Assembly (NCBI GenBank): GCA_947502975.1
Contig: CANNBV010000002.1
Location: 749,251 to 813,250 of the forward strand
Direction: 5' to 3'
Origin: an uncultured Flavobacteriaceae bacterium
GTDB taxonomy: Bacteria > Bacteroidota > Bacteroidia > Flavobacteriales > Flavobacteriaceae
DNA: 64,000 nt
The translations under genes and the position numbers were made by a program. The notes beneath the pieces were generated by a model. The model made no database searches. It was not told where the DNA came from and worked only from the letters and a program-made list of their open reading frames with translations. This document shows, in pieces, positions 40,617 through 55,220 of this stretch. Within the stretch, counting starts at the first letter, position 1. Each line of letters opens with the position of its first letter.

Positions 40617-40749
40617 GGTATTGATAAATGGTTGGTTAGTAATATGTTTTGCTAACAGTTTAATGTATAGAACATTGTGTTAGCAAGGTAGTAAGTTAAT
40701 AAAAGAAAACGAAATTGTTATAAATCTGCTTCATGTTACAGGAGAAATG

Positions 40750-41610: not shown

Positions 41611-41632
41611 GATTTAAAAATAGCCATATTTT

Positions 41633-41707
41633 TGTCAACCTGAACTTGTTTCAGGTTCTCATTTTATTTGTATGATTAAGAGATTCTGAAACAAGTTCAG
41701 AATGACA
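41633..41707. repeat. long inverted repeat (28-bp arms)
   Basis: The arms at 41633-41660 and 41680-41707 match at 24 of 28 positions in reverse complement, sharing CTGAACTTGTTTCAG. The loop is 19 bases. The outer ends read TGTCA and TGACA, so it belongs to the GTCA-type palindromic family. It separates the fructosamine-kinase gene from the reductase-like gene. Confidence 0.8.
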
Positions 41708-41721
41708 AATATGAGAATATT

Positions 41722-42261
41722 TTATCTTTTTCGTTTATAGCAACTCTGAACAATCTGATTATAGAACACTTCCGTTTTTACATGTTCAAATTTTAAAGAT
41801 TTTGGTAATACATCAAATAATGGAATCCCATCTCCTAAAACAATAGGAATCGTTGTTAGCCTTAATTCGTCAATTAAATCTTGCTTCAAAAAGTTTTGAA
41901 CCACATTTCCACCATCAATATACAGGGTATTATAACCTTTGCTGTGAATGGTTTCTAAAATGGCAGTTTCGGTTCCGCTAAGCAACATCACTTTGTTTTT
42001 AAGATTTTCAGGAATTTCTTTTATAGAGTGACTTAAAACAAAAACAGGCTTTAGGTATGGCCAATCAATATCAAAACTAAGTACGGTTTTAAATGAGGTG
42101 CTTCCCATCACGATGGCATCAATCTCATCCATTAAGGCATTGTAGCCCATATCTAATTGGTCAGGATTGGGAATCATGTCTAACCAATCTAACTCGCCAT
42201 TTTTTCCAGCAATATAATTGTCTATACTTTTACCAAGAAAGACTATGTTTTTTGGTTTCAT
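41722..42261 (-). CDS. dihydrofolate reductase/RibD C-terminal family protein
   Basis: A 179-residue protein with IVFLGKSIDNYIAGKNGELD at the N-terminus, AIVMGSTSFKTVL in the middle and LYIDGGNVVQNFLKQDLIDE, the NADPH-binding block near residue 130. DELRLTTIPIVLGDGIPLF completes the RibD-C pattern. It is probably an NADPH-dependent reductase, but true DHFR or riboflavin activity is unlikely to be its role: genuine DHFR motifs are missing and no rib genes are near. It follows the lipoprotein gene by 23 bases. Confidence 0.8.
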   Translation of the reverse strand: MKPKNIVFLGKSIDNYIAGKNGELDWLDMIPNPDQLDMGYNALMDEIDAIVMGSTSFKTVLSFDIDWPYLKPVFVLSHSIKEIPENLKNKVMLLSGTETAILETIHSKGYNTLYIDGGNVVQNFLKQDLIDELRLTTIPIVLGDGIPLFDVLPKSLKFEHVKTEVFYNQIVQSCYKRKR

Positions 42262-42284
42262 AGAACCAAGATAATAAACAAGTG

Positions 42285-42815
42285 TTATTTAAGTACGTAT
42301 TTTACTGATGCCAGTTCAAATTTACTTGGTGGAGGACCAAGGTTGGGGTCATGAGGTGTTTCTTTATCATAAATAAGATTACAACTTGAATTAGCTTGTA
42401 TTTCATTACAGGGTGAGCTAGCATCGTTTGAATAACTTGTTGAAAATTGTATGTTATCTGAATCGATAGTCAATATCGGATTCCCTCTAACTATAAAGTT
42501 ATTTTCGTTATTCAATTTTATTTCAAATTGAAGCTTACTTGTATTATTTCCTGTATCAGCAGTAAAAACAAAATTTATAACTTCATAAGAAAAGTTCTTT
42601 AGAGCATTTCCTTCATCAATTGGTGTGACCGCTGTTGGCTCTGGAAAATCACAAGGAACTTCTTGTGTTTGTTCAGGGATAAAGGTTATACCCGATGGAC
42701 CACTGATAGTTTGTTCAAATTGTACGATGATGGTTTTTGTACAATTATCATCAGAAGGACAGGAAAATAAAAAAAGTAAATTCAACAAAAAACATAGCTT
42801 AAAGAACTGTTTCAT
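42285..42815 (-). CDS. hypothetical lipoprotein
   Basis: A 176-residue protein with a lipoprotein signal: hydrophobic residues 5-18, then LFSCPSDDNC with the lipid-anchoring Cys at about 19. The mature part is rich in Asn, Asp and Thr with a beta-sandwich look (KLQFEIKLNNENNFIVRGNP). I do not recognise the family. It lies between the methyltransferase gene and the reductase-like gene on the same strand. Confidence 0.6.
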   Translation of the reverse strand: MKQFFKLCFLLNLLFLFSCPSDDNCTKTIIVQFEQTISGPSGITFIPEQTQEVPCDFPEPTAVTPIDEGNALKNFSYEVINFVFTADTGNNTSKLQFEIKLNNENNFIVRGNPILTIDSDNIQFSTSYSNDASSPCNEIQANSSCNLIYDKETPHDPNLGPPPSKFELASVKYVLK

Positions 42816-42849
42816 AATAGATGTTTAAGGGTGAAACTATGTTATAAAA

Positions 42850-44064
42850 TTAAGATTTCTTTTCCAATAACGCCATATAAAACCCATCAAACCCATTTTC
42901 ATGAGCTAGAATCTTCTTGTCTTTTACCAATTCGAAATTTGCTCCAGCTTCAGTCTTTAAAAAGGCTTTTACTTGATTTTGATTTTCAGATGGTAATACA
43001 GAACACGTAGCATATACCATTTTGCCATTTGGTTTTACCATTTTTGAATATTGCTGTAAAACATCGTGTTGCACACCTCTAATTCTATCTAAAAACTCAG
43101 GTTCTAGTTTCCATTTAGCATCTGGATTACGGCGTAACACACCCAAACCAGAACATGGTGCATCAATCAACACACGGTCGGCTTTATTGTATAATTTTTT
43201 AATTGGTTTTGTAGAATCAATTACTTTTAAATCCACATTATGTACACCGTTTCTACGCGCTCTTATTTTTAATTTTTTGAGTTTACTTTCATAAATGTCC
43301 ATCGCTACAATTTGTCCTTTATTTTCCATTAAAGAAGCAATATGCAACGTTTTACCACCAGCTCCAGCACAGGCATCTACTACTTTCATACCTGGTTTTA
43401 CATCTAAGAACTCTGCCACCAATTGCGATGATGCATCTTGTACTTCAAACAACCCATTTTTAAAAGCATCGGTTACAAATACATTAGCGCGTTCAGTAAG
43501 TTTTAATGCTGATGGATAACCTTTTATGAATTCGGCTTCTATACCAAAATCAAACAGTATATTTTGTAACTTTTCTTTTGTGGTTTTTAAGGTGTTTGTT
43601 CTTAAAATAACATCTGCTTTTTCGTTTTGCATTGCTATTTCTTTGTCCCATTTAGCTTCTCCTAATTCGGCTACGCCAACTTCATCCATCCAATCTGGAA
43701 TAGATTCTCTTAGTTTTCTAACTTTTGAGAGTTCATCAAAACGGCCTTTTATTTTTCGAGTAGGTGTGCCTTCAAAATATTTCCAATCTGGTAACTTGAT
43801 ACCTTTTAGTGTAGCCCAAACCGCAAACATACGCCATAGATTATCACGATCAAACGGTTCTTTTACTTCGGCGATTTCAGCGTATAGACGTTTCCAACGT
43901 ACAATGTCATAAACAGTTTCGGCTACAAATCCTCTGTCACGTGAGCCCCAACGTTTATCACGTTTTAGTAATTGTTGGATGACCTTATCAGCATATTGAT
44001 CTTCATTGAAGATTTGTGTCAATCCGTCTATAACTGCAAAGCAAAGGTTTCTGTGTAATCGCAT
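42850..44064 (-). CDS. RsmB-like RNA (cytosine-C5) methyltransferase
   Basis: A 404-residue enzyme. The N-terminal NusB-like RNA-binding helices (about 1-130) are followed by the SAM-dependent methyltransferase domain: KVVDACAGAGGKTLH (SAM-binding loop near 233), VLIDAPCSGLGVLRRNPD with the catalytic Cys, and MVYATCSVLPSENQNQV with the second catalytic Cys. The closest described family is RsmB/NOP2, which methylates 16S rRNA C967. The target is inferred from the family. It is a single gene. Confidence 0.88.
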   Translation of the reverse strand: MRLHRNLCFAVIDGLTQIFNEDQYADKVIQQLLKRDKRWGSRDRGFVAETVYDIVRWKRLYAEIAEVKEPFDRDNLWRMFAVWATLKGIKLPDWKYFEGTPTRKIKGRFDELSKVRKLRESIPDWMDEVGVAELGEAKWDKEIAMQNEKADVILRTNTLKTTKEKLQNILFDFGIEAEFIKGYPSALKLTERANVFVTDAFKNGLFEVQDASSQLVAEFLDVKPGMKVVDACAGAGGKTLHIASLMENKGQIVAMDIYESKLKKLKIRARRNGVHNVDLKVIDSTKPIKKLYNKADRVLIDAPCSGLGVLRRNPDAKWKLEPEFLDRIRGVQHDVLQQYSKMVKPNGKMVYATCSVLPSENQNQVKAFLKTEAGANFELVKDKKILAHENGFDGFYMALLEKKS

Positions 44065-44613
44065 AATGTTTTATTGAGGGTGCAAATCTACATCATAATA
44101 CTGATTTATAGTCATAATTCAGCTATAATAGATAAAACTTATTTAGCTATTGGAAAAATAATAAAAATGAAGTAAGATTTTGAGTGAAATAACGTCAAAA
44201 TGTTAAAAAAAGACGATGAAAAACTTAGATCTAAATAAAATAAAACTTCTACTATACTTCATTAGCACTGCTCTAATAGTATTAAATGTTTTGGTTATTT
44301 ATGTTATAAATTTTTAACCTTCTTTAGTTAGTAAATATCAAGCATAGGTAGGCTATAAATACTAGTATTATAAACTAGCATAAATCACTATGTTTTCTTT
44401 CTTTTTATTTAAGTAAATTGTTGTGTTTTTAAATTTTATTTTAAAACGCAAGTTTTTATTTTTTTAGGCATCTAAACTGAAAAAGCTTTCATCAAAGCTT
44501 AGCTTTGATGTTTCTTTTGAAATTGTTATTCTCGCGAAATCGAAGGTTTATGAATACATTAATATAATGTCTGAACGAATCAATAATGTGGGAATCTAAT
44601 TCAAAATACGTAT
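44065..44613. other. 549-bp intergenic region
   Basis: It contains a possible small membrane-protein gene (44216-44317, separate entry) and a degenerate palindrome, GTTATTCTCGCG at 44525 against GGGAATC near 44590. It should also contain the promoter of the ECF sigma gene at 44614. No confident promoter consensus was found. Confidence 0.5.
44216..44317 (+). CDS. possible 33-residue single-pass membrane peptide
   Basis: An ATG at 44216 opens a frame encoding MKNLDLNKIKLLLYFISTAL followed by a hydrophobic run to VINF and a TAA. A charged start followed by one hydrophobic helix is typical of small membrane proteins, but so short a frame could be chance. A purine-rich AAAAAAAGACG precedes the ATG. 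It stands alone, 297 bases before the sigma-factor gene. Confidence 0.3.
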   Translation: MKNLDLNKIKLLLYFISTALIVLNVLVIYVINF

Positions 44614-45192
44614 TTGACGGAAAACGAATTTATAGCGGGATTACGAAACCATAACGCCAATGCGTATGGGAAGCTGTTGGATGATTTTCAGCAAAAAGTA
44701 TTTGCAACGTGTATTTCGTTTGTACCGAATAAAGAGGACGCTGAGGATATTGCGCAGGAGGTGTTTGTAGAGGTGTTTAATTCGATAGGGAAGTTTAAAA
44801 GCAACTCTAAACTATCAACTTGGATTTATAGGATTACGACTAATAAATGTTTGGAGTTTATTAGAAAGCGGAACACGAAAAAGCGATTTGGGTTTATGCA
44901 ATCTATTTTGGGAAATGAGATTCCGGTAGACAAGACAAATTATTTTACGGAGCTGAATCATCCTGGAATTATTTTGGAGAATAAGGAGAAGAGTGAGACG
45001 CTGTTTTATGCGATAAACCAGTTGCCTGATGCGCAAAAAGTAGTGTTTACTTTGCATAAAGTGGATGGGAAAAGTTACCAAGAGATTAGTGATATTACTG
45101 AGAAAAGTGTGAGCTCTGTGGAGTCTTTAATGTTTCGTGCAAAAAAGAATTTACAGAAGCTTTTAGAGAATTTTTATAAAAATAATAATTAG
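44614..45192 (+). CDS. ECF-type RNA polymerase sigma factor
   Basis: A 192-residue sigma factor with regions 2 (EDAEDIAQEVFVEVFNSIG near residue 48, STWIYRITTNKCLEF near 68) and 4 (SYQEISDITEKSVSSVESLM near 152). The start is a TTG at 44614: a TAA lies in frame at 44584 and no ATG or GTG comes before the conserved N-terminus. The next gene encodes a short membrane protein, the likely anti-sigma factor. The operon ends at the terminator after 46096. Confidence 0.88.
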   Translation: MTENEFIAGLRNHNANAYGKLLDDFQQKVFATCISFVPNKEDAEDIAQEVFVEVFNSIGKFKSNSKLSTWIYRITTNKCLEFIRKRNTKKRFGFMQSILGNEIPVDKTNYFTELNHPGIILENKEKSETLFYAINQLPDAQKVVFTLHKVDGKSYQEISDITEKSVSSVESLMFRAKKNLQKLLENFYKNNN

Positions 45193-45230
45193 CGCAAGTT
45201 TTTAGAACTTACGACATCTAAATCTTTGAT

Positions 45231-45551
45231 ATGGATACAGGTAGAAACTTACAGAACCAAATTGACGAGACTTTACATGTTTTGGATAACATAGAGTCGG
45301 TTAACGTATCTCCTTTTTTTAAGGACAAAACAATGAATGTGTTGTTTGCTGAAAAAGAAGAGGTGCAAACGGGATGGTCTTGGTTTACTCCAAAATTACA
45401 ACTGGCTACGCTGGCTTGTGTTGTGATTTTAAATGTTATGGCGTTTACTAAACTAGAAGAAACATCGACTTACGAGGAAAATGTAAGCGAGTTTGCAGAG
45501 ACTTATGGGTTGTTGATTAGTGATGAGGACACTTCAATTTTAAACAACTAA
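45231..45551 (+). CDS. putative anti-sigma factor, single-pass
   Basis: A 106-residue protein with a cytoplasmic N-terminus of about 58 residues, one membrane helix (LATLACVVILNVMAFTKL, about 63-80) and a short acidic periplasmic tail. It follows the sigma gene by 38 bases and precedes the Spy-like gene by 2 bases. A zinc-binding ZAS motif is not seen, so the role as anti-sigma factor is inferred from gene order and topology. Confidence 0.65.
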   Translation: MDTGRNLQNQIDETLHVLDNIESVNVSPFFKDKTMNVLFAEKEEVQTGWSWFTPKLQLATLACVVILNVMAFTKLEETSTYEENVSEFAETYGLLISDEDTSILNN

Positions 45552-45553
45552 TC

Positions 45554-46096
45554 ATGCGAAAAAATTTACCCTTATATATTTTATTATGCTTCTTAATTGT
45601 GGTGAATGCATTTTTTCTCTATAATTATTTAGGTAGTGGAGAAAAGGGACAAGAGCCTCTAGATAGGAAACCTCCTGATGCTTTTTTGGCAGACGAACTT
45701 GGATTTGAGGATGCACAAAAGCAGCAGTTTAGAGCTTTGAGTAGAGAACACAGACAGCATATTAGAGGTATCTCTGATGATATTCGTGCTTTAAAAGATG
45801 CGTTGTTCAGTGGTTTGTCTGATGCGTCGTTAGAATCTATTAATACGGATTCTATAACTACATTAATTGGTAAAAAAGAGAAACAAAGAGAGTTATTAAC
45901 CTTTAATTATTTTAATGAAGTTCAAGAATTATGTACTGCTGAACAAAAAGAAAAATTTAGAAAAATAATTAAAGATGCACTTAGACGAGGTATGAGAGGG
46001 CAAGGACCACCTCCTGGAGGAAGACCTGATGGTAATAGACCACCACCACCTAGAGATAGGGATGGTGATAGGCGACCACCTGAGCATCAAAATTAA
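45554..46096 (+). CDS. Spy/CpxP-like periplasmic heavy-metal-resistance/chaperone protein
   Basis: A 180-residue protein with an N-terminal membrane anchor (about 6-25) and a long helical region containing LGFEDAQKQQFRALSREHRQ and LCTAEQKEKFRKIIKDALRR. These resemble the LTxxQ repeats of the Spy/CpxP/CnrX group. A Pro/Gly/Arg-rich tail (GQGPPPGGRPDGNRPPPPRD) ends the protein. Family members sense metal or envelope stress, or act as periplasmic chaperones. It is third in the sigma-factor operon and may signal to the anti-sigma factor. Confidence 0.75.
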   Translation: MRKNLPLYILLCFLIVVNAFFLYNYLGSGEKGQEPLDRKPPDAFLADELGFEDAQKQQFRALSREHRQHIRGISDDIRALKDALFSGLSDASLESINTDSITTLIGKKEKQRELLTFNYFNEVQELCTAEQKEKFRKIIKDALRRGMRGQGPPPGGRPDGNRPPPPRDRDGDRRPPEHQN

Positions 46097-46105
46097 AAGT
46101 CTTTT

Positions 46106-46138
46106 AGACCTTCAACATAATGAAGGTCTTTTTTTTTG
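46106..46138 (+). terminator. intrinsic terminator after the sigma/anti-sigma/Spy operon
   Basis: AGACCTTCA (46106-46114) and TGAAGGTCT (46121-46129) form a perfect 9-bp stem with a 6-base loop, followed by a run of T. It separates the sigma operon from the EF-hand gene at 46217. Confidence 0.92.
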
Positions 46139-46216
46139 TGATTTTTTTAACAAGGAGCCCCACAAGTTTAAAATAATGAATGCATCTAAAACATCATAAC
46201 GATAAATTTTAAACAA

Positions 46217-46516
46217 ATGAAACTACACAAATTGAAATCAGCAATATTAGCTTTTGGAACAGTATTACTTATGACTAATACTTCTTTTGGACAATCTGAT
46301 GATAAGAGAGAAAGAAGAGAGCCACCAACATTTAAAGAGTTATTAGAAAAGATGGATGCCAATGAAGATGGAAAACTATCAAAGAAAGAGATTAAAGGCC
46401 CTCTTAAAGAACATTTTGATAAAGTTGACGCAGATGAAGACGGATTTATTACCGAAGAGGAATTAGCAAAAGCACCAAAGCCAAAACGAAGAAAAGCGGG
46501 ACAAGGAAGAAACTAA
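46217..46516 (+). CDS. secreted EF-hand protein
   Basis: A 99-residue protein with a signal peptide (about 1-25, ending TSFGQ). It has two canonical calcium loops: Asp47 to Glu58 (DANEDGKLSKKE) and Asp71 to Glu82 (DADEDGFITEEE), with acidic residues at positions 1, 3, 5 and 12 of each. The tail is Lys/Arg-rich (KPKRRKAGQGRN). Calcium binding is likely. It leads the YHYH/MORN/SCO cassette, 31 bases upstream of the first YHYH gene. Confidence 0.85.
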   Translation: MKLHKLKSAILAFGTVLLMTNTSFGQSDDKRERREPPTFKELLEKMDANEDGKLSKKEIKGPLKEHFDKVDADEDGFITEEELAKAPKPKRRKAGQGRN

Positions 46517-46547
46517 AAAAAGGACTTTAACTATAAAACTTAAAGAT

Positions 46548-47333
46548 ATGTCTAAGAAAAATTTATTTAGGGTATTTGGAAATACCACGATAATATTACT
46601 ATGTTTTTCTATTTTGATGACTTGTAGTAATAGCGATGATAGCTCAAGTGAGGAAATGGGAGAAGAAGGAATAACAGAATTACATCCTGCATTTGCGGAG
46701 TTTTCAGATGCAGTTACCGCTATATTATCTGATGATGGTACCGAAATATATATTGAAACAACCGGATTTCCAAACCATACTTCAATTTATTGGAACCCTA
46801 CTAATGCACTCTATATAGATGAATCAACAGTTAGAAAAACAACTGAGAATACTTATATTGGAGGAGGACGTGGTGAAGCTAGTTCGTTTACAGTTGATGC
46901 AACTCCAAATTTAACAGGTGCTAGTGTTGCTACACAATTAGGAACTATGGGTATTGCTGTAAGTGGGTCAGCTATTTTTAATGACCAAGAAGGTAATGGA
47001 GATTTAGATGGAGCTGCAGGAAGTTTAGATTGGGCTGGTGCTCACAAAGGACCTGGTGTGTACCATTATCACTTAGAACCTAGACCAATTACTAATGATG
47101 ATGGCAGTTTAGTTGGTATATTAATGGATGGTGTGTTTATATATGGAAGAAGAGACTATCCTTCTAATGAATATCCCACAGATTTAGACGAATCTGGAGG
47201 ACATTTTGGACCAACACCTCACAATTCAGAGGGTGAATATCATTATCATATTATTAATGAAGTGTATCCTGCCGCAACATATGGATATGATGATCCTATT
47301 GTTCTTTTCGCTGGTCCATTTCAAGGGTACTAA
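46548..47333 (+). CDS. YHYH-domain lipoprotein, copy A
   Basis: A 261-residue lipoprotein (lipobox SILMTCSNSDD, Cys26). Two YHYH motifs, at residues 172-175 (GVYHYHLEP) and 231-234 (GEYHYHII), define the YHYH family, which is of unknown function; the His clusters suggest metal binding. GILMDGVFIYGR and FGPTPHNSEGEY are further conserved segments. Copy B at 50040 has the motifs at nearly identical positions. It is followed after 9 bases by a MORN-repeat lipoprotein and then by SCO1. Confidence 0.82.
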   Translation: MSKKNLFRVFGNTTIILLCFSILMTCSNSDDSSSEEMGEEGITELHPAFAEFSDAVTAILSDDGTEIYIETTGFPNHTSIYWNPTNALYIDESTVRKTTENTYIGGGRGEASSFTVDATPNLTGASVATQLGTMGIAVSGSAIFNDQEGNGDLDGAAGSLDWAGAHKGPGVYHYHLEPRPITNDDGSLVGILMDGVFIYGRRDYPSNEYPTDLDESGGHFGPTPHNSEGEYHYHIINEVYPAATYGYDDPIVLFAGPFQGY

Positions 47334-47342
47334 TATAGAAGT

Positions 47343-47966
47343 ATGAAATCTATTCTTTTTTTTATACTTATCGCATTTTCTATAGTAGGTTGTAAACAAA
47401 AAAGGCCTATCAAATCTGATAATACTTTTATTTCAGATAATAAGCCTATTTTTATTGATAGCATTGAAGTGTTAAAAGAAGAATTAGTACTTAATGGAAA
47501 TAAAGGTAAATGGTATTATAAAGAAAAACCTTTTAATGGATATTCTTTAAAGTATTACCCAAATGGAACTCTAGAAGAAAAATGGGGTTTTTATAATGGC
47601 AAAAGAGAAGGTATTGCTAAACGATGGACTAAAAGCGGAAAACTTCAAGTAGAATCTTATTATAGAAACAACCGTTTAACAGGTGTTTATAAAACCTGGT
47701 GGGAGAATGACACTTTAGCAAGTCTGTCTTATTATGAAGATGGTACTAAGCAAGGTGTGGATAAAAATTGGTATCCAACAGGTCAAATTGCTAAATTACG
47801 AAACCTCGTTGATGGAAAAGAAAATGGTTTACAACAAGCTTGGTTAGCTAACGGTAAATTGTATGTTAATTATGAAGCTAAAAATGGTCGTGTTTTTGGA
47901 ATGCGTCGCGCAAATTCATGTGTTAGATTAGAAAATGAAGTTATTATTAGGAAGAAAAAATCGTAA
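47343..47966 (+). CDS. YwqK/MORN-repeat lipoprotein, copy A
   Basis: A 207-residue lipoprotein (FSIVGCKQK, Cys17). The body is a run of MORN-like repeats: LKYYPNGTLEEKWGFYNGKR, WTKSGKLQVESYYRNNRLTG, then WYPTGQIAKLR and WLANGKLYVNYE. The family is often labelled a YwqK toxin-antitoxin protein, but no toxin is nearby. Repeats of this kind form surface-exposed beta-scaffolds. It overlaps the SCO1 gene by 32 bp, so the two are coupled. Copy B is at 50814. Confidence 0.8.
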   Translation: MKSILFFILIAFSIVGCKQKRPIKSDNTFISDNKPIFIDSIEVLKEELVLNGNKGKWYYKEKPFNGYSLKYYPNGTLEEKWGFYNGKREGIAKRWTKSGKLQVESYYRNNRLTGVYKTWWENDTLASLSYYEDGTKQGVDKNWYPTGQIAKLRNLVDGKENGLQQAWLANGKLYVNYEAKNGRVFGMRRANSCVRLENEVIIRKKKS

Positions 47967-48630
47967 AGCCTTATTGCTTTTTTTATTTGTAATTACAATA
48001 AGTTGTAAAAAAGAAATTAAAAAGGAAAACATTAAAGTTGTTGAAACCAGTAGAGTCGATTATTTACCTTTTTATGATGAAGAATCGTTTACTCCAAATT
48101 GGTTAGTACCTGGAAGTGATGAAGAAAAAAAGTTTCATAAAATTCCAGATTTCAAATTAATTAATCAACTAGGAGATACCATATCTCAAAACACATTTGA
48201 TGGAAAAATATATATTACAGATTTTTTCTTTACAACCTGCCCAGGTATATGTCCGAAAATGACAGGCAATATGTTTAAAATTCAGGAAGAATTTAAGAAT
48301 GATAACGATGTGTTGTTGTTGTCACATTCTGTAATGCCTTCAACAGATTCGGTTTCGGTCCTAAAAGCATATGCAAAAACATATGGTGTTATTGATAATA
48401 AGTGGCACTTAGTTACTGGAGATAAAACTGAAATTTACAACTTAGGAAGAGATTATTATTTTGTTGAAAATGATTTAGGAGAGCCAAAAGCTATAGATGA
48501 TTTTTTACATACTGAAAACTTTTTATTGATAGATAAAAACAAACATATTCGCGGAATTTATAACGGGTTGAATAGAGCTTCAATGGCTCAATTAATTATA
48601 GATATTAAATCTTTATTATTAGAGAGTTAG
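47935..48630 (+). CDS. SCO1/SenC-like protein, copy A
   Basis: A 231-residue lipoprotein (VITISCKKE, Cys24) with a thioredoxin fold. The redox or copper motif CPGIC is at 102-106, followed by a conserved His in FLHTENFLLID near 192. KIYITDFFFTTC and KWHLVTGDK are family blocks. SCO1 proteins deliver copper to cytochrome oxidase or act as thiol reductases. It is third in the first cassette. No cytochrome oxidase gene lies in the window, so a different target is possible. Confidence 0.88.
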   Translation: MKLLLGRKNRKALLLFLFVITISCKKEIKKENIKVVETSRVDYLPFYDEESFTPNWLVPGSDEEKKFHKIPDFKLINQLGDTISQNTFDGKIYITDFFFTTCPGICPKMTGNMFKIQEEFKNDNDVLLLSHSVMPSTDSVSVLKAYAKTYGVIDNKWHLVTGDKTEIYNLGRDYYFVENDLGEPKAIDDFLHTENFLLIDKNKHIRGIYNGLNRASMAQLIIDIKSLLLES

Positions 48631-48697
48631 TCTAACAAGAGTTTCTTGTATTAAACCTTTTTTAACTTTTAAGGTCTAAGAATAAATTGTTATAAGA

Positions 48698-50020
48698 ATG
48701 AAACCTACATATCTAAAATTATTAGTTTTTCTGATTATTTTTTATTCATGCAGTAATACCGATGAGGTTATTATTAACGAAAATGAAGAGGAACAGACCG
48801 TATCTTCTAAACCAAATATATTACTAATTATAGCAGATGATATGGGGCTAGATGCTACTCCTGGTTATAACATTGGAGCTGTTAAACCGAGTATGCCTAA
48901 TTTGGAAGCATTAATGACTAACGGTATAAAATTTACTAACGTATGGTCTTCTCCATTATGCACACCTACTAGAGCTGGTATCATCACAGGTAAATATGGC
49001 TTTAGAACAGGAGTAACCAATGTTACTCAAACTTTACCGACTAGTGAACAATCTATACATAGTTATTTAGATGCTATGAATTCTGAATATAACCATAGTG
49101 TAATTGGTAAATGGCATCTAGCTAATAGAGATGTAAATCATCCAAATACTATTGGTGTTGATGAATACGCAGGGATATTGGGCGGAGGTGTACAGTCTTA
49201 TTTTAATTGGGATTTGATAGAGAATATGCAAAGCACAAATTCAACGGCATATACAACCACTAAACTTACTGATTTAGCTATAGATTGGATTGGAAGTCAA
49301 AATCAACCTTGGTTTTTATGGTTGGCGTATAATGCACCTCATACACCTTTTCATTTACCGCCAAATGAATTGCACAGTCAAGGTGCGTTGCCTTCTGATG
49401 AAGCAAGTGTAGATGCAAATCCTTTACCTTATTATTTGGCCATGTTAGAAGCCATGGATACAGAAATGGGAAGGTTATTTAATTCTATGAGTCAAGAAGA
49501 AAGAGATAATACTGTAATTATTTTTATTGGTGACAATGGTACTCCAAATCAGGTTGTACAAACCTATTCAAGTCGTCGAGCAAAAAATAGTCTTTATCAG
49601 GGTGGTGTAAATGTTCCTATGGTAATTTCTGGAAAAAACGTAACCCGAAAAGGTGCTGAAGAACCTGCATTACTTGGCACAATAGATCTATTTGCTTCAA
49701 TCGCTGGAATTGCAGGAGCAGATGTAACTGAGATAAATGATAGCAAAAATTTTACATCAATGTTTAATACATCTGGGATTTCTGTTAGAGATTATGTGTA
49801 TTCTGAAATTGGTGATGATAGTAATTCTATTGATTATACGATACGAGAAGCAGATTATAAACTTATAAGATTCTCAAATGGAGATGAAGCACTTTACAAT
49901 TTAACACAAGACCCTTTAGAATCTATCAATTTATTAAATGTAAGTCAATTGCCATTATCTAGCGAAGCGTCTACTGCGAAAGATCTCATGGAAGCAGAGC
50001 TCATCAGGCTAAAACAATAA
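48698..50020 (+). CDS. sulfatase lipoprotein
   Basis: A 440-residue lipoprotein (IFYSCSNTDE, Cys18) of the arylsulfatase family. The metal-binding ILLIIADDMG has Asp47-Asp48. The active-site Cys88 is in SSPLCTPTRAG, the C-x-P-x-R motif that becomes formylglycine. GKWHLA, HTPFHLP and FIGDNGTP supply further metal ligands. Cys-type sulfatases need a maturase, and none is seen in the window. It lies between the two YHYH/MORN/SCO cassettes on the same strand. The substrate is unknown. Confidence 0.9.
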   Translation: MKPTYLKLLVFLIIFYSCSNTDEVIINENEEEQTVSSKPNILLIIADDMGLDATPGYNIGAVKPSMPNLEALMTNGIKFTNVWSSPLCTPTRAGIITGKYGFRTGVTNVTQTLPTSEQSIHSYLDAMNSEYNHSVIGKWHLANRDVNHPNTIGVDEYAGILGGGVQSYFNWDLIENMQSTNSTAYTTTKLTDLAIDWIGSQNQPWFLWLAYNAPHTPFHLPPNELHSQGALPSDEASVDANPLPYYLAMLEAMDTEMGRLFNSMSQEERDNTVIIFIGDNGTPNQVVQTYSSRRAKNSLYQGGVNVPMVISGKNVTRKGAEEPALLGTIDLFASIAGIAGADVTEINDSKNFTSMFNTSGISVRDYVYSEIGDDSNSIDYTIREADYKLIRFSNGDEALYNLTQDPLESINLLNVSQLPLSSEASTAKDLMEAELIRLKQ

Positions 50021-50039
50021 AAATTAAAACCCAAATACT

Positions 50040-50813
50040 ATGAAATCAATTAAATTTTTACTTCCATTATTATTGTTAGTTTTTATAGCTCTCATTGCAT
50101 GTTCCAATAGTGATGATGCTGTGCAAGAGCAGGAGCAAGATGAAGTAAACAATAACACAGATTATGATATTACTGGTATACTTTCAAAGTTTAGCGGTAC
50201 TGGTTTGTCGTATGCAGTTAACGGAAATACAGTAACATTTACTACGCAAGATTTGCCTAACCATACAAGTCCGTATTGGCCAACAGATAATCCATTGTAT
50301 GAAGCTTATAATGGCACAAATGCTGATTTCCGCATAAACCCTAATAGAATTTCAGCTCAAAATATAGTATTCACTATAACGCTAAACCCCGAAGAAGCTT
50401 CGAATAAAGAAGTTACTCCAATGGGACCAATAGGAATATCGAGAAATGGTGTCGTATTTTTTAATCAGTATGCAGCTGGAGGTTCACCATTAACTAATGA
50501 AATTAATTCTTTCGATCAGTATTTAGGGCATCCTGCTGGACAGGGAAATTACCATTACCATATAGAACCAACGTATCTCACAGAACAATTTGGTGACGAT
50601 ACCTTTCTAGGATTATTATCAGATGGTTTTCCTGTGTATGGGCCACTTGAGAATGGAGAAATTATTACCAATGCAGATTTAGATGTTTATCATGGCCATA
50701 CATCAGAAACGGCAGATTTTCCAGATGGTATCTATCATTATCACATAACTAGTGATGATCCGTATTTAAATGGTAATGGCTTTTTTGGAACACCTGGAAA
50801 TGTTTCTCTATAA
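50040..50813 (+). CDS. YHYH-domain lipoprotein, copy B
   Basis: A 257-residue lipoprotein (ALIACSNSDD, Cys21). It is a paralogue of the protein at 46548, with YHYH at 171-174 (GNYHYHIEP) and 232-235 (GIYHYHIT), and the middle segment LGLLSDGFPVYGP. The spacing of the two motifs (61 residues here, 59 in copy A) is nearly the same. It starts 19 bases after the sulfatase stop. The next gene starts directly at its stop codon, so the second cassette is tightly coupled. Confidence 0.82.
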   Translation: MKSIKFLLPLLLLVFIALIACSNSDDAVQEQEQDEVNNNTDYDITGILSKFSGTGLSYAVNGNTVTFTTQDLPNHTSPYWPTDNPLYEAYNGTNADFRINPNRISAQNIVFTITLNPEEASNKEVTPMGPIGISRNGVVFFNQYAAGGSPLTNEINSFDQYLGHPAGQGNYHYHIEPTYLTEQFGDDTFLGLLSDGFPVYGPLENGEIITNADLDVYHGHTSETADFPDGIYHYHITSDDPYLNGNGFFGTPGNVSL

Positions 50814-51380
50814 TTGAAGTTTTCAATATTACATATCTCTTTTATTATTTTGGCTTTTGTATCCTGCCAAAAACAAGACAATTTGGTTATTGATGCATCT
50901 CATGAGCATCTAAAATTGAATAATGGTGTTTTAGTATTAGAAGATCAACCTTTTACAGGCAAGTTGGTAAACAAATTCCCTAATGGAAATCTACAGTCTG
51001 AAGTGTTTTACAAAAAAGGTTTAAAGGAAGGTAAGGAAAGGCAGTGGTATGCTGATGGCAAATTGAATGTTGAGCGATTTTATGATAGAGGTATTAAAAC
51101 AGGAATTCATAAATCATGGTGGGAAAATGGGAGTTTAAAATTTGAATATCATTTTAATGATAGAGGAGAATTTGATGGTATCGTTAAGGAGTGGTATGAA
51201 AGTGGACTGCAATTTAAAGATTTTAATTACAAGAAAGGCAAAGAAGTTGGGTCTCAAAAACTTTGGAAACCAGATGGAAGAATTAAAGCAAATTATGAAG
51301 TAGTTAATGGAGAACGATTTGGCTTAATAGGCTTAAAAAAATGTTATAAGGTAACAGTGGATGAAGATGAAATTGAATAG
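50814..51380 (+). CDS. YwqK/MORN-repeat lipoprotein, copy B
   Basis: A 188-residue lipoprotein with start codon TTG at 50814, immediately after the TAA of the upstream gene. No ATG lies before the signal peptide, and the lipobox LAFVSCQKQ (Cys19) fixes the frame. MORN-type repeats follow (KFPNGNLQSEVFYKKG, WYADGKLNVERFYDRG, WYESGLQFKDFNYKKG). The C-terminal NGERFGLIGLKKCYK matches the FGMRRANSC end of copy A. It is coupled to YHYH copy B and precedes SCO copy B by 35 bases. Confidence 0.8.
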   Translation: MKFSILHISFIILAFVSCQKQDNLVIDASHEHLKLNNGVLVLEDQPFTGKLVNKFPNGNLQSEVFYKKGLKEGKERQWYADGKLNVERFYDRGIKTGIHKSWWENGSLKFEYHFNDRGEFDGIVKEWYESGLQFKDFNYKKGKEVGSQKLWKPDGRIKANYEVVNGERFGLIGLKKCYKVTVDEDEIE

Positions 51381-51415
51381 CTAAAGGCTGTCTAAAAAGA
51401 TTAATAATTGTAAAA

Positions 51416-52060
51416 ATGAATTTTTATTTGAAATATATATGTTTCTTGATGTTGATTGTTTTTGTCTCATGCAAACTCAAATCAACAGAAACGAGCTCTA
51501 GTGAAATTACTAAGCTTCCCTATTTTAATTCTGCAGACTTTACTCCAGAATGGGATACACCCAAGCACAAGGTTCCTAAGTTTTCATTTGTGAATCAAAT
51601 GGGAAGCGAGGTAAACAACCAAACATTTAAAGGTAAAATTTATATAGCAGATTTCTTTTTTGCTTCTTGTTCAGGTATATGTCCCAAGCTTACAAAAAAT
51701 ATGAAAGCAATTCAAGAAGCTTATAGTAATGATGATGAGATTAAGTTGTTATCTCATACTGTAATGCCATGGCGGGATTCCATTCCAATTTTACAAGAGT
51801 ATGCTAAAACATATGATGTAAATCCTCAAAAATGGCATTTGGTTACTGGTGATAAAGATGAATTATATGATATAGCCAGAACAGGTTATTTTGCAGATGA
51901 AGATTTTACTAAAACCCAAGATGAGAGTAACTTTATCCATACCGAGAATTTTATTTTGGTAGATCATCTAGGCCATATAAGAGGTGTTTACAACGGTACA
52001 TTACCAATTGATGTAGAACGTTTAAAGCGGCATATAGAAATTTTAAAAAAGGAGATATGA
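51416..52060 (+). CDS. SCO1/SenC-like protein, copy B
   Basis: A 214-residue lipoprotein (VFVSCKLK, Cys19), paralogue of the protein at 47935. The redox motif is CSGIC at 85-89, followed by the conserved His of FIHTENFILVD near 178. The blocks KIYIADFFFASC and KWHLVTGDKDE are nearly identical to copy A. The change from CPGIC to CSGIC and the different N-terminus suggest that the copies may have separate partners. A terminator follows at 52119. Confidence 0.88.
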   Translation: MNFYLKYICFLMLIVFVSCKLKSTETSSSEITKLPYFNSADFTPEWDTPKHKVPKFSFVNQMGSEVNNQTFKGKIYIADFFFASCSGICPKLTKNMKAIQEAYSNDDEIKLLSHTVMPWRDSIPILQEYAKTYDVNPQKWHLVTGDKDELYDIARTGYFADEDFTKTQDESNFIHTENFILVDHLGHIRGVYNGTLPIDVERLKRHIEILKKEI

Positions 52061-52118
52061 TTTGATTGATGGTTCGATGTTTTTCTGAGTAGGAAACACA
52101 TTGTTAACTTTTTTGATG

Positions 52119-52158
52119 AAAAGCTTCGTGATTGTTTACGGAGCTTTTCTATTTTTAT
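52119..52158 (+). terminator. intrinsic terminator after the second SCO gene
   Basis: AAAAGCTTCGT (52119-52129) pairs with ACGGAGCTTTT (52138-52148), with one mismatch and an 8-base loop, then a T-rich run. It argues against the TTG at 52132 as a start for the next gene. Confidence 0.8.
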
Positions 52159-52173
52159 GGAAATTTGAAAATT

Positions 52174-53274
52174 ATGATGCGTTTTTTTCTACTAATGCTT
52201 ACTATTTGTTTTTTCTTTTCCTGTGGAAAAAAGGAAACATTTAAGCCAAGAGATTTTTCTAAAGTTGAAATTGAATATTTAATGGAAGATTCTTTGTTGA
52301 ATGTTAGGGCTTTGGAAATAGATGGAAAAGATTCTTTTGGATTTGCAACTTCAAATGGAGAAATAGGAGGAAAAGATTATGATTGGAGTGGAGGAACTAT
52401 TTATCGTATTGATTCTATAATAAGAGATGTCAGAGAAAGTGCTAGTTTAAGTTTTCGATTAATACATGATTCTATAGTTCCCAATTTTAGGTCGTTAGCA
52501 TCAACTATAAAAGGAGGATTTGTTCTTTCAATTGAGTCTCCTTCTTTGTTATACAAAATTAGTAAAGACTCTATTAAGCTAGTATATAAAGAAACCCATC
52601 CAAAAACATTCTACGATTCCATGGACTTTTGGAATGATGAAGAAGGCATCGCTATCGGAGATCCAACTGATGATTGTATGAGTATTATTATCACAAGAGA
52701 TGGTGGCGAAACCTGGACGAAATTATCATGTGACGAGTTACCAAAAACCAAAGATGGAGAAGCAGCTTTTGCGGCCAGTGATACAAATATTGCCATAGTT
52801 GGCAATCATACTTGGGTAGCAACAGGGGGAAAGGCGAGTAGAATCTTGTATTCACCGGATAAAAGTAAAACTTGGGAAGTGTTTGATACACCAATTATTC
52901 AAGGGAAAGAGACAACTGGTATGTACTCTATTGATTTTTATGATGAACTCCATGGTTTTGCTATTGGAGGTGATTATACCAAGCCTGATGAAAATGCTGC
53001 AAACAAAATAAGAACAAGTGATGGTGGTAGGACTTGGGAATTGGTTGCAGAAAGCCAAAACCCAGGATACAGAAGTTGTGTACAATACATCCCTAATAGC
53101 AAGGGTAAAGAATTAGTTGCTATTGGTTTTAAAGGTATTGATTATAGCAATGATTCGGGCTATTCATGGAAACATTTAAGTGATGAAGGGTTTTATACGA
53201 TTCGTTTTTTAAACGATTCGATTGCTTATGCAGCAGGAAAGGGTAGAATTTCTAAGCTTACTTTTAGAGAATAA
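52174..53274 (+). CDS. Ycf48/BNR-repeat beta-propeller lipoprotein
   Basis: About 366 residues from the ATG at 52174 (a second ATG follows at 52177). The lipobox ICFFFSCGKK gives a lipid anchor. Propeller blades carry BNR/Asp-box-like motifs: IIITRDGGETWTKL near residue 170, LYSPDKSKTWEV, IRTSDGGRTWELVA and YSNDSGYSWKHL. In plants and cyanobacteria the Ycf48 family aids photosystem II assembly; in Bacteroidota the role is unknown. It follows the terminator at 52119, so it probably has its own promoter. Confidence 0.8.
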   Translation: MMRFFLLMLTICFFFSCGKKETFKPRDFSKVEIEYLMEDSLLNVRALEIDGKDSFGFATSNGEIGGKDYDWSGGTIYRIDSIIRDVRESASLSFRLIHDSIVPNFRSLASTIKGGFVLSIESPSLLYKISKDSIKLVYKETHPKTFYDSMDFWNDEEGIAIGDPTDDCMSIIITRDGGETWTKLSCDELPKTKDGEAAFAASDTNIAIVGNHTWVATGGKASRILYSPDKSKTWEVFDTPIIQGKETTGMYSIDFYDELHGFAIGGDYTKPDENAANKIRTSDGGRTWELVAESQNPGYRSCVQYIPNSKGKELVAIGFKGIDYSNDSGYSWKHLSDEGFYTIRFLNDSIAYAAGKGRISKLTFRE

Positions 53275-53283
53275 TTCAACTGT

Positions 53284-53357
53284 TTGTCATTCAGAATGAG
53301 GAACGACTGAAGAATCTTATCTTATTTAAAGATGCTTCGTTGCGCTCTGAATGACAA
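53284..53357. repeat. GTCATTC-type inverted repeat between convergent genes
   Basis: TTGTCATTCAGAATGAGG at the left is mirrored by CTCTGAATGACAA at the right, with further partial pairing (AACGACTGAAGAATC against GATGCTTCGTTG). It sits between convergent genes and could terminate both transcripts. Confidence 0.65.
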
Positions 53358-53365
53358 TAAAAAAA

Positions 53366-53812
53366 TTACTTCTCTCCTTGATGCCTTCTTTTTTTAAATT
53401 CTTCTAGCATTTTCTTTTTAAAATCCTCCTCCGCGAGTTTTAATCGAATCATTTTCTTAGGAGAAATAATTTTAGAGAGTTTACCAGAAAAATCAGTTTT
53501 AAGATCGTGTATTTGGTTCTCTGCTTTTTTAAAGCGTTCAATAAGTGCCAAAGCTTGACTGTCTGACATGGTATCCAAATTGCTTCTTATTTCTTTTCTA
53601 ATACTTCTGATTTCTTTAAATCGTATCTGATTCATTTTTTGCTCAAACGCATTATAAACTGGCCAAAACTCTTGAGCTTCTTTTTCTGTTAAACTTAATT
53701 TTTCTGTAAGAAATGAAATTTTTAAAGCTTTAATACGCTCATGTCGTTTACCTTTTTGGGCAGATACGCCAAACGAAACACATAGTAAAAGTATAACAAG
53801 TATTTTTTTCAT
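53366..53812 (-). CDS. periplasmic helical protein of an ECF module
   Basis: 148 residues from the ATG at 53812 (an earlier in-frame TTG at 53821 is not needed). It has a signal peptide (ending GVSAQKG) and long charged helices. LSLTEKEAQEFWPVYNAFE near residue 40 and IISPKKMIRLKLAEEDFKKK resemble the Spy/LTxxQ and 'sensor of ECF-type sigma factor' proteins of Flavobacteria. It is third in the minus-strand sigma operon and is the counterpart of the Spy-like gene at 45554. Confidence 0.75.
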   Translation of the reverse strand: MKKILVILLLCVSFGVSAQKGKRHERIKALKISFLTEKLSLTEKEAQEFWPVYNAFEQKMNQIRFKEIRSIRKEIRSNLDTMSDSQALALIERFKKAENQIHDLKTDFSGKLSKIISPKKMIRLKLAEEDFKKKMLEEFKKRRHQGEK

Positions 53813-53826
53813 AGTAATCAATATTT

Positions 53827-54330
53827 TTATTCTATCATCAAATTTTCTATATCTGCATTATTTAGCAAATATTCCTCCAGACGTTCTTCGTCTAAATCAA
53901 AATCAACTAAACCTTCTTCATTGGGCAATTCTTCTGTAAACAAAGAAGCAATGTCATAAGAGCTTATATCCTCTTCTAAAATATAATTTTCAACGGTAGC
54001 TGTTTCTAAGTCTCCAACGGTCACTGTACTGTTAAAAATAGAGAGATTAAATAGTAAAAGTACAGCTGCAGCTATACTAGAAATATATACGACTGTCTTT
54101 CTATTAAAAAGTGAAATTACTTTTGTTTCCTCTTTATCTTTAACGTTATCAAGAATACGATCTTCTATGTTTTCAAAATAATCTTTAGGAACTTCAAAAC
54201 CAGTTTGAGATACACCAATAGTTTTTTGGGTATTCATTTTTTCAAATAAACTATCTTCAAAATTCTCGAAATAATCTTTCGGAACTTTAAACCCAGTAGA
54301 TTTTACAGTATTTAATTTTTTGTCTTTCAT
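53827..54330 (-). CDS. putative anti-sigma factor with duplicated N-terminal motif
   Basis: A 167-residue protein with two near-identical N-terminal units, STGFKVPKDYFENFED (about 11-26) and QTGFEVPKDYFENIED (about 42-57). One membrane helix follows (about 79-99, VVYISSIAAAVLLLFNL). The C-terminal tail is acidic (EELPNEEGLVDFDLDEERLE). It lies 43 bases after the sigma gene and is taken as its membrane-bound anti-sigma factor on gene order. The repeats may be sigma-binding segments. Confidence 0.68.
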   Translation of the reverse strand: MKDKKLNTVKSTGFKVPKDYFENFEDSLFEKMNTQKTIGVSQTGFEVPKDYFENIEDRILDNVKDKEETKVISLFNRKTVVYISSIAAAVLLLFNLSIFNSTVTVGDLETATVENYILEEDISSYDIASLFTEELPNEEGLVDFDLDEERLEEYLLNNADIENLMIE

Positions 54331-54373
54331 TTTATTAATGCATAATAGTATGACTTATATAATGCGAAAAGGT

Positions 54374-54919
54374 TTAATTATCAGTTAAATATGATTCAAT
54401 TTTCTTTACAGCTATATGATATGATGCTTTAAGAGCACCTTCACTCGTTTCTAAAATTTTTGCCATATCTTTATACTTTACATCTTCAAAATACTTCATA
54501 TTAAACACCAATTGTTGTTTTTCAGGAAGTGTAGCTATGGCTTTTTGTAATTTTAATTGAATAGCATCCCCTTCAAAATACACATCAGAGGTTAGATTTT
54601 TTATGGCAAGTTGCTGAACTTTTTCATTTGTAATTTGTAAACGCTTCGCATTTTTATTTATTAATGTGATAGACTCGTTTGTGGCAATACGATACATCCA
54701 AGAGAACAGTTTACTATCTCCTTTAAAGTTATGGATATTTTTATAAATCTTTATAAATGTATTTTGAAGCACATCATCAGCGTCGTCATGAACTTTTACG
54801 ATATTTCGGATATGCCAATACAAGCGTTCCTTGTAAAGCGACATAAGTGCTCTAAAGGCTTTTTCTTTGTATTGGTCTGATTTTAATTGTTCTACTAATT
54901 GTGCTTCGTCAATCACCAA
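54374..54919 (-). CDS. ECF-type RNA polymerase sigma factor
   Basis: A 181-residue sigma factor. Region 2 has DDADDVLQNTFIKIYKNIHN and SWMYRIATNESITLI. Region 4 has LPEKQQLVFNMKYFEDVKY and ILETSEGALKASYHIAVKKI. The start is TTG 54919 or GTG 54916, since no ATG is available. It is followed by an anti-sigma-like gene and a periplasmic protein gene on the same strand. The module faces the module at 44614 across the YHYH/MORN/SCO cassettes. Confidence 0.88.
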   Translation of the reverse strand: MVIDEAQLVEQLKSDQYKEKAFRALMSLYKERLYWHIRNIVKVHDDADDVLQNTFIKIYKNIHNFKGDSKLFSWMYRIATNESITLINKNAKRLQITNEKVQQLAIKNLTSDVYFEGDAIQLKLQKAIATLPEKQQLVFNMKYFEDVKYKDMAKILETSEGALKASYHIAVKKIESYLTDN

Positions 54920-55220
54920 AGTTATTTAGAGTTTAGACAGATAAAAATAGGGAAAGTTTAATTTGATTTTCATACAATAAATTTACTGTATGTGTAATTA
55001 TTTAATAACCATGTAGTTATAAAATAAAACATCGATTAAGTGTAAAAAAATACGATAAAATACATTTTTTTCTTGTGAGATTCAAAGTAATGTTATAGAT
55101 TTGGATTCAGAAACCTACTTATATATGTTAGTCGTCCCCAAGTCTAGCATGAACAAAAAAAGGATAGTTGCCCAAATCACTATCCTTTTTTATTTTTTAG
55201 TTATAAGCCTCTATTAAAAA
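54920..55220. other. 301-bp intergenic region before the sigma operon
   Basis: It holds the terminator at 55155. ATAAC-CATGTA-GTTAT at about 55006-55021 is an inverted repeat; a related ATTAC-CATGTA-GTTAT lies near 18280, upstream of the gene at 18218. No gene and no confident promoter box were identified. Confidence 0.5.
55155..55191. terminator. intrinsic terminator after the ABC-transporter gene
   Basis: AAGGATAGT (55160-55168) pairs with ACTATCCTT (55179-55187) across 10 bases, flanked by A and T runs, so it can work on both strands. It lies 30 bases after the stop codon at 55221 on the minus strand. Confidence 0.88.

Follow-up and report, generated by a model that had tools for sequence, protein, structure and literature searches.

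A 64,000-nucleotide stretch of DNA from an uncultured Flavobacteriaceae bacterium (NCBI GenBank assembly GCA_947502975.1, contig CANNBV010000002.1, positions 749,251 to 813,250 of the forward strand), hereafter the window, carries two copies of a cassette of three lipoprotein genes, encoding a YHYH protein (Y), a MORN_2 protein (M) and an SCO protein (S), with a sulfatase gene between the copies. Y, M and S constitute a conserved unit of genes that are inherited together as whole cassettes, and each of the three families has invariant residues of its own. The source genome comprises 4.5 Mb in 36 contigs, and the window lies within contig C2.

The two cassettes and the intervening sulfatase

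Cassette 1 begins with Y1 (46548..47333), a YHYH lipoprotein with a cluster of His and Asp residues (PF14240, 42.5 bits; Pfam cut-off 25). It is followed by M1 (47343..47966), a MORN_2 lipoprotein with a C-terminal Cys193 (PF07661, 40.1 bits; cut-off 29.6), and by S1 (47935..48630), an SCO lipoprotein with residues C102, C106 and H192 (SCO1-SenC, PF02630, 90.8 bits; cut-off 22.8), the start of which overlaps the end of M1 by 32 bases. Cassette 2 repeats this order with Y2 (50040..50813; PF14240, 68.6 bits), M2 (50814..51380; C-terminal Cys177; PF07661, 50.4 bits) and S2 (51416..52060; C85, C89 and H175; PF02630, 87.5 bits). The sulfatase lipoprotein (48698..50020) is of the Cys type, with the signature CTPTR (PF00884, 149.3 bits; cut-off 25). 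All seven genes lie on the + strand, and all Pfam family calls are above the curated gathering cut-off.

The original prediction, made from the sequence of the window, had described the same order of genes twice, lipoboxes, paralogous triads and a Cys-type sulfatase between them, and these features were confirmed. Each of the six cassette proteins has a lipobox Cys, as does the sulfatase, and the paired proteins align by blastp with 32% identity for Y1 and Y2 (235 columns, E 3e-22), 33% for M1 and M2 (E 3e-29) and 46% for S1 and S2 (E 5e-68). The two YHYH motifs, described as about 60 residues apart, are separated by 59 residues in Y1 (172-175 and 231-234) and by 61 in Y2 (171-174 and 232-235), and both SCO proteins possess the Cys-x3-Cys motif (CPGIC and CSGIC) and the His (His192 and His175) ascribed to them. 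With regard to a toxin-antitoxin reading of the MORN/YwqK name, general Pfam scans, which did not include a dedicated search of a defence library, found no toxin family among the cassette genes, and the NCBIfam matches of proteins from the cassette region were weak and far under cut-off, e.g., 13.9 bits against a cut-off of 90 for the CptIN toxin model.

Conservation of the triad across Bacteroidota

Conservation of the triad was examined in three samples. Within the same family, 199 genomes were drawn and PF14240 was found in 57 of them; one locus was taken from each of 40 of these genomes, picked for short YHYH matches, and the other 17 contributed none. At 39 of the 40 loci, the three genes are adjacent, on one strand and in one order, the exception being L053, where Y adjoins a sulfatase.

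A scan of the contigs of 84,980 species with the Y alignment confirmed at least 555 relatives. The best 80 of these, ranked by likeness to Y2 and thus biased toward close relatives, are referred to as the named loci, and they include members of the Flavobacteriales, the Cytophagales (Hymenobacter, Spirosoma, Emticicia) and the Chitinophagales (Sediminibacterium, Chitinophagaceae). Y, M and S occur together at 77 of the 80, in 76 cases with a strong YHYH gene at the head and in one case with a divergent head; the remaining three (L110, L115, L133) end at a contig end after Y-M. Strong Y genes in this set (>150 bits, + strand) number 88, of which 81, spread over 76 loci, head full triads. These triads have the order Y-M-S in 78 cases and Y-S-M in one, while two further Y-S-M triads contain an intervening antisense open reading frame (ORF) produced by the ORF caller. 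Four strong Y genes are extra copies, located ahead of a sulfatase and a triad (L082), ahead of a triad (L147) or, for two of them, in L145, where the M-S pair comes after a divergent Y of 84 bits. Because the order is Y-S-M instead of Y-M-S at three named loci (L146, L159, L160), the genes evidently stay together through rearrangement.

The third sample consisted of 395 Bacteroidota genomes drawn evenly from the phylum, in which a YHYH gene was considered strong at ≥220 bits on the A1 profile. Such genes were found at 23 places in 19 genomes, and an SCO gene lies within 2 kb at 22 of these places, while any SCO match at E 1e-20 was present in 182 of the 395 genomes. Chance adjacency of the genes was rejected on the basis of this proximity and of the change in order without separation. 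The exception is G368, in which a triad-type SCO gene sits on another contig; this unlinked gene (L181) is the twentieth of the 20 loci studied from this sample. At the 19 loci with Y, M stands beside Y in every case when antisense ORFs are discounted, and S does so in 17. Conversely, all 18 genomes with an SCO protein of ≥259 bits on the triad profile also carry a strong Y, a threshold that was set after the next match, at 258 bits, proved not to be triad-linked.

YHYH genes of other kinds behave differently. For the weaker and longer matches of the phylum sample (<85 bits), the SCO places listed, which leave out many in those genomes, show no neighbor except in G001, where such a gene precedes a triad. 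No M was found at 23 of the 30 best-scoring loci with long, full-length YHYH genes from the same-family scan (loci of 2.9-3.7 kb, with short flanks, so that distant partners are possible), and the triad therefore belongs to a short YHYH subfamily.

Some observations weigh against the model proposed below. The spread of strong Y genes is patchy, in that only the 19 genomes noted above carry them; Y-M pairs without an adjacent SCO gene occur in L168 and L180; and the sole other species of the window's genus among the 199 same-family genomes has no YHYH match. Adjacency in distant genomes had been proposed as the test of the original prediction, and the 77 named loci and 17 phylum-sample loci with all three genes bear it out. 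This adjacency supports a conserved module, and the triad very probably acts as one functional module.

Co-divergence of the cassette genes and position of the SCO proteins

Phylogenetic trees of Y, M and S were built from 94 sets drawn from 124 triads after removal of near-identical Y sequences. The trees, which were made by a quick method without a mixture model, are unrooted, and branch support is given as the Shimodaira-Hasegawa-like approximate likelihood ratio test (SH-aLRT). All three contain one branch that parts the same 25 triads of cassette 1 type from the other 69, with support of 100 for Y, 99 for M and 99 for S; the window's first cassette is among the 25 and its second among the 69. 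This common split indicates that copying and inheritance involved entire cassettes rather than individual genes. Beyond it, many branches differ, and approximately 21 of 91 non-trivial splits are common to each pair of trees.

In a separate tree of 69 SCO sequences, 47 triad-type proteins and 22 background proteins fall on opposite sides of a branch with support of 98. Of the 47, 36 come from the 124 triads and 10 from the phylum sample; the last is the SCO of G368, which groups on the triad side despite being encoded on a different contig from its Y-M pair. Outside the triads, three additional SCO-family matches occur in the window's genome. One (L074), which is included in the 22 background proteins, lies beside cytochrome-oxidase-type genes and another beside feoB-like and rseP-like genes, these neighbors having been named by reading the sequence, while the third is weak and reads as a thioredoxin-like protein.

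Invariant residues and predicted structures

Residue conservation was counted on 43 aligned same-family triads using Y1 numbering. In Y, His 77, 166, 173, 175, 219, 232 and 234 and Asp 161 and 194 are kept in all 43, as are both YHYH motifs. A wider alignment of 56 Y sequences (Y2 numbering) retains His 164, 172, 174 and 233 and Asp 159 and 195 as invariant residues, with His 75, 220 and 235 conserved at ≥90%. Apart from the lipobox Cys, the aligned Y sequences contain no invariant Cys. The two Cys residues and the His of S are kept in 43/43 triads, and Cys-x3-Cys is present in all 124 triads. M contains one Cys near its C-terminus in each of the 43 same-family triads; it likewise has no exception in a 43-row alignment reaching the Cytophagales, and a Cys lies within the last 45 residues of 140 of 141 M proteins. 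Of the three other MORN_2 proteins of the window's genome, one was compared in part only and another contains a Cys 40 residues short of its end.

The structural model of Y2 is confident, with a predicted local distance difference test (pLDDT) score of 89.6. A Foldseek comparison of this model with solved structures found no like fold (best PDB E 0.18), and a PDB sequence search with Y gave no meaningful match. The Y2 model does match models of cyanophage and giant-virus YHYH proteins, with a best E of 1e-12. M2 is modeled as an all-beta repeat protein (pLDDT 92).

Predicted location of the lipoproteins

For surface lipoproteins of Bacteroides and Flavobacterium, a proposed export signal consists of a polar residue and then acidic ones (PMC5080379). 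Using the presence of at least two acidic residues at positions +2 to +7 after the lipobox Cys as the criterion, acidic tails were found in 77% of Y proteins (n=145) and 57% of sulfatases (n=30), compared with 26% of M (n=125), 22% of S (n=140) and 17% of Ycf48-like proteins (n=23). Proteins in which the rule found no lipobox were left out of these counts (5/150 Y, 0/30 sulfatase, 15/140 M, 1/141 S and 8/31 Ycf48-like). Because acidic tails occur mostly in Y and the sulfatase and not in M and S, Y and the sulfatase are probably exposed on the cell surface, with S and M facing the periplasm. The suggestion in the original prediction of a surface complex of all three proteins is thus half borne out: Y is predicted to be at the surface, but the tails of S and M predict the periplasmic side.

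Extracytoplasmic function sigma factors and promoter-like motifs

Two genes for extracytoplasmic function (ECF) sigma factors flank the cassettes, and each is associated with its own promoter-like motif. Neither these two genes nor the EF-hand, anti-sigma and Spy-like genes described below were part of the original prediction. Cassette 1 stands behind motif A, which also precedes sigma1 and its anti-sigma gene, and the sulfatase and cassette 2 stand behind motif B, which also precedes sigma2.

Upstream of cassette 1 and on the same strand, an ECF-type motif A site (CAAGTTT-N13-CATCTAA, 44449..44475) precedes sigma1 (44614..45192; Pfam Sigma70_r2 and r4_2). A second site (45195..45221) precedes a gene for an anti-sigma-like protein of 106 amino acids with one hydrophobic stretch (45231..45551), which has no Pfam or NCBIfam match and was assigned from its position, topology and conservation in relatives. 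Next comes a Spy/CnrX-like, sensor-like protein with an N-terminal hydrophobic stretch (45554..46096), followed by an intrinsic-terminator-like hairpin and T run, read by eye (46106..46137), and by a third motif A site (46163..46189) ahead of a putative operon consisting of a gene for a small protein with two EF hands (46217..46516; Pfam) and Y1, M1 and S1. In the sensor-like protein, H66 and C127 are each kept in 31 of 32 sequences. Cys127, which occupies the first position of an LTxxQ-type motif (31/32; Q131 in 32/32), is a candidate residue for metal or redox sensing.

In the window, motif A (AAGTTT-N13..15-ATCTAA) occurs only ahead of the sigma1, anti-sigma and EF-hand genes, and the next best site has three mismatches. 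Genome-wide, CAAGTTT-N13..17-CATCTAA has four sites (the three in the window with a spacer of 13 and one elsewhere with a spacer of 16), compared with one for the backwards control. The distinct upstream sequences of relatives contain motif A before anti-sigma (25/31), sigma1 (15/48), EF-hand (13/30), Y1-type (10/37), Y2-type (10/103) and Ycf48-like genes (1/26), and it is absent from the sets for sigma2 (26 sequences), sulfatase (25), M (129), S (131) and the Spy-like gene (42). The expectation from Markov-resampled sequences is ≤0.03 per upstream set.

In 12 genomes of relatives, chosen for carrying the locus, CAAGTT-N14..15-CATCTAA has 49 sites versus 10 for the backwards control, and 39 of the 49 lie, by coordinate, within the cassette regions studied. 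Eight of the 10 unlinked sites were examined, and the YHYH, CotH and sulfatase genes at these sites were named by sequence resemblance. They precede a YHYH gene by 31 bases, a CotH-like gene by 25, two sulfatase genes by 26 (in an open frame of only 274 amino acids) and 100, a PAP2-family gene by 147 and a membrane protein gene by 104 (spacer 15), and one site (spacer 15) falls inside a receptor-like frame. At L257 (G019:C2), motif A lies 25 bases before a gene for a small CHGKC protein, which is followed by a Met/His-rich, outer-membrane-type protein of the Phenol_MetA_deg family; an HbpS-like gene is nearby, and the locus is possibly metal-related.

Motif B precedes the start of the sulfatase gene by 18 bases (TAAACCTT-N14-GTCTAA, 48652..48679, + strand). 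A site of the same class (TAAACTTT-N14-GTCTAA, 54933..54960, - strand) lies 13 bases before sigma2 (54374..54919, - strand; Pfam Sigma70_r2 and r4_2), which is convergent to cassette 2. Conserved beside sigma2 on the - strand are genes for an anti-sigma-like protein (53827-54330) and a small secreted protein (53366-53821), the roles of which are suggested by position; neither gene (53366..54330) matches a Pfam family above cut-off. The two other motif B sites (TAAAC[CT]TT-N13..15-GTCTAA) in the window's genome are located 44 bases ahead of a DUF1800-DUF1501 gene pair (G000:C1:338365; L186, L189:6438-9120), a link that recurs in relatives, and 57 bases ahead of the gene for a large IgGFc-binding-family protein (G000:C7:4236; L188).

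Conservation of motif B was assessed in 12 genomes of relatives that overlap with those used for motif A. Together with the four sites of the window's genome, 30 of the 32 sites of the relatives were examined; 12 of these 34 precede sigma2, six DUF1800 (one a distant match of 86 bits), five IgGFc-type genes and two sulfatases, and nine precede nothing recognized. In upstream sets of relatives, a strict form of motif B occurs before sigma2 (19/26), sulfatase (9/25), Y2 (1/103) and Y1 (1/37), and a relaxed form is found in 23/26, 15/25, 12/103 and 1/37, respectively, and in none of the other sets. These placements suggest that DUF1800-DUF1501 belongs to the sigma2 regulon.

Because of the autoregulatory placement of the motifs, we infer that sigma1 reads motif A and sigma2 reads motif B. 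Several points count against this assignment and the accompanying sensory role. Both motifs were spotted by eye in the sets that were later counted, the anti-sigma set excepted, and the relaxed form of motif B was widened after looking at the data. Motif B has as many backwards control sites as true sites in the window's genome (four each), and in the 12 relatives the ratio is 32 to 18; these raw genome-wide counts support the motif weakly, and placement and conservation carry the argument. The occurrence of motif A before some Y2-type genes implies that regulation goes with position rather than with the type of cassette. The Spy-like sensor scores under the Pfam cut-offs for LTXXQ (PF07813, 22.2 bits; cut-off 24.3) and Metal_resist (PF13801, 17.2 bits; cut-off 29.2), and in the window it has Tyr in place of the His119 found in 24 of 32 sequences.

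The sulfatase and other accessory genes

The original prediction had placed the sulfatase with the cassettes. It is not a constant companion, being present at 23 of the 80 named loci, but the promoter-like motifs tie it in, and all 22 strong sulfatases counted by their neighbors at these loci adjoin Y or S. In the favored model, the sulfatase is an accessory member of the regulon. Carrageenan sulfatases and other glycan sulfatases are among its nearest solved relatives. In L180 (5780-7036), an arylsulfotransferase-family protein follows Y-M where SCO would stand, which, together with the sulfatases, hints at sulfate-ester chemistry. Pfam analysis of the 19 genes of 40044-54919, a scan that covered neither 42850-44064 nor the rest of the window, found no SusC/SusD pair.

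A Ycf48/BNR-like lipoprotein (52132..53274, + strand; PSII_BNR) is another accessory gene product, often encoded after the triad (18/80 named loci). The named loci also include same-strand genes for ECF sigma factors (32), Spy-like proteins (32) and EF-hand proteins (11), and the EF-hand genes often stand ahead of Y. Full-length YHYH proteins with C-terminal EF-hand sequences adjoin triads in L040, L041 and L052, the last confirmed by Pfam. A LytTR response regulator and histidine kinase-type pair is near the triad at eight of the 40 same-family loci, one pair being confirmed by Pfam; these loci (L035, L038, L039, L043, L049, L050, L057, L058) are mostly without ECF genes.

A scan for a fourth partner compared 104 of 120 co-directional neighbors with Pfam. 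Among the best 25 of 126 families, the recurring plausible partners are CotH (10), CCP_MauG (4), MIP (3) and arylsulfotransferase (2). A VTC-domain protein (L089) and DUF4956 and DUF2490 proteins (L048) are encoded in one gene run with CotH and the triad.

Proposed model and alternative explanations

The cassettes probably build a metal- or thiol-dependent protein of the cell surface. The best model, to which even confidence is attached, is that of an ECF-linked envelope module, present in two paralogous copies, which matures a surface YHYH metalloprotein. According to this model, a periplasmic signal would reach the Spy/CnrX-like sensor and lead to the release of sigma1 from its anti-sigma factor. 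Sigma1 would then transcribe its own gene, the anti-sigma gene and the EF-hand-Y1-M1-S1 operon, and sigma2 would likewise transcribe its own gene and sulfatase-Y2-M2-S2. After its export, Y would hold a metal in its His/Asp cluster at the cell surface and would bind or cleave a surface or extracellular substrate, often in partnership with the sulfatase and CotH. S and M would remain periplasmic and mature Y ahead of export, S acting via its Cys-x3-Cys/His site and M serving as a MORN scaffold whose invariant C-terminal Cys would either relay a metal or act as a thiol partner. The proposal that S and M act on Y is held with slightly better than even confidence.

Copper or redox chemistry, as the original prediction had also suggested, may be read from the invariant SCO ligands and the separate clade of triad SCO proteins. 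Copper is a tentative choice of metal, held with a little less than even confidence. In a fuller version, the triad would form an autonomous factory for surface metalloproteins of a new class in Bacteroidota: a dedicated Sco-type carrier would pass copper via the C-terminal Cys of M to the His/Asp cluster of Y before export, and entire factories would have been duplicated and placed under separate ECF sigma factors, with different sets of sulfatase, CotH and surface-protein genes. This version is rather unlikely in all its parts.

The main rival, close to the copper reading, gives SCO a thiol-redox role. Here SCO would be a thiol-disulfide or peroxide-handling protein that keeps the Cys of M or other thiols reduced, in a module that responds to oxidative or halogen stress on the surfaces of algae. 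The single invariant C-terminal Cys of M, the absence of an invariant Cys beyond the lipobox in Y and the conserved Cys of the Spy-like sensor fit this explanation, as do the diheme peroxidase genes (CCP_MauG) that adjoin the triad at a few loci and the motif A site before the PAP2-family gene, which we read as haloperoxidase-like. Such peroxidase neighbors are rare, however, and the copper-site His kept beside the Cys pair in every aligned triad SCO is not needed for a purely thiol-based role. The stress-response reading as a whole is considered somewhat unlikely.

Alternatively, YHYH could be a hydrolase that depends on zinc and acts on surface glycans or peptides, within a module for the use of sulfated polysaccharides, SCO and MORN being unrelated passengers of the operon. 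A Zn2+ site, formed by a His triad and an Asp, and a role as a hydrolase are predicted for a phage YHYH domain in one study (PMC7824862), and the sulfatase with its glycan sulfatase relatives points in the same direction. Nevertheless, SCO and MORN are much more constant than the sulfatase and co-diverge with Y, and no SusC/SusD or glycoside hydrolase family was found among the cassette genes or the best 25 of 126 neighbor families, which renders this explanation improbable. The reading of S as an ordinary copper chaperone of cytochrome oxidase, beside lipoprotein genes by accident, draws on clear SCO membership and on nearest solved relatives that include Bacillus subtilis Sco, but was rejected as highly improbable, since triad SCO proteins form a separate clade adjacent to Y and M in the Flavobacteriales, Cytophagales and Chitinophagales, and another SCO gene stands beside cytochrome-oxidase-type genes in the same genome; genomic context thus speaks against service of CuA by the triad proteins.

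If the maturation model is true, SCO proteins would gain a client beyond cytochrome oxidase. The findings also suggest that a duplicated lipoprotein cassette shares ECF regulons with genes for sulfatases, CotH, DUF1800-DUF1501 and a large surface protein. Proteins with the YHYH domain are known from marine bacteria, phages, giant viruses and diatoms (PMC11992049), and a literature search found no experimentally tested function for any of them. The fixed partnership with SCO and MORN, the invariant residues and the candidate promoters turn this into a testable question of the metal, the partner and the inducer.

Comparison with known systems

The component families and the layout of sensor, anti-sigma and sigma genes are already known. 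The original prediction that no system of this composition has been described agrees with a literature search that found none, most subscription papers being outside its reach. The triad SCO proteins belong to the same family as SCO1/SenC and B. subtilis Sco/YpmQ (1on4, 1xzo; also 4hde), and they retain Cys-x3-Cys and His. They differ in forming a clade of their own, in having fixed YHYH and MORN partners and in being encoded away from the cytochrome oxidase locus. The cassette Y proteins similarly score above the Pfam cut-off for PF14240, the family that includes cyanophage YHYH proteins, but they represent a subfamily of short lipoproteins of ~250 amino acids, and their partners are SCO and MORN instead of tail proteins.

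CnrH-CnrY-CnrX is a metal-sensing ECF system. The arrangement upstream of cassette 1 resembles it in the adjacency of an ECF sigma factor, a short membrane anti-sigma-like protein and a Spy-like sensor, and motif A before the sigma1 and anti-sigma genes is consistent with putative autoregulation of sigma1. In contrast to that system, the sensor is below the Metal_resist cut-off and the linked genes are those for YHYH, MORN, SCO, sulfatase and CotH. Finally, the sulfatase of the window shares PF00884, the CTPTR signature and a proximity to carrageenan sulfatases with the sulfatases of marine polysaccharide degradation, but it stands behind an ECF-type motif together with a YHYH cassette, with no SusC/SusD pair among the scanned neighbors.

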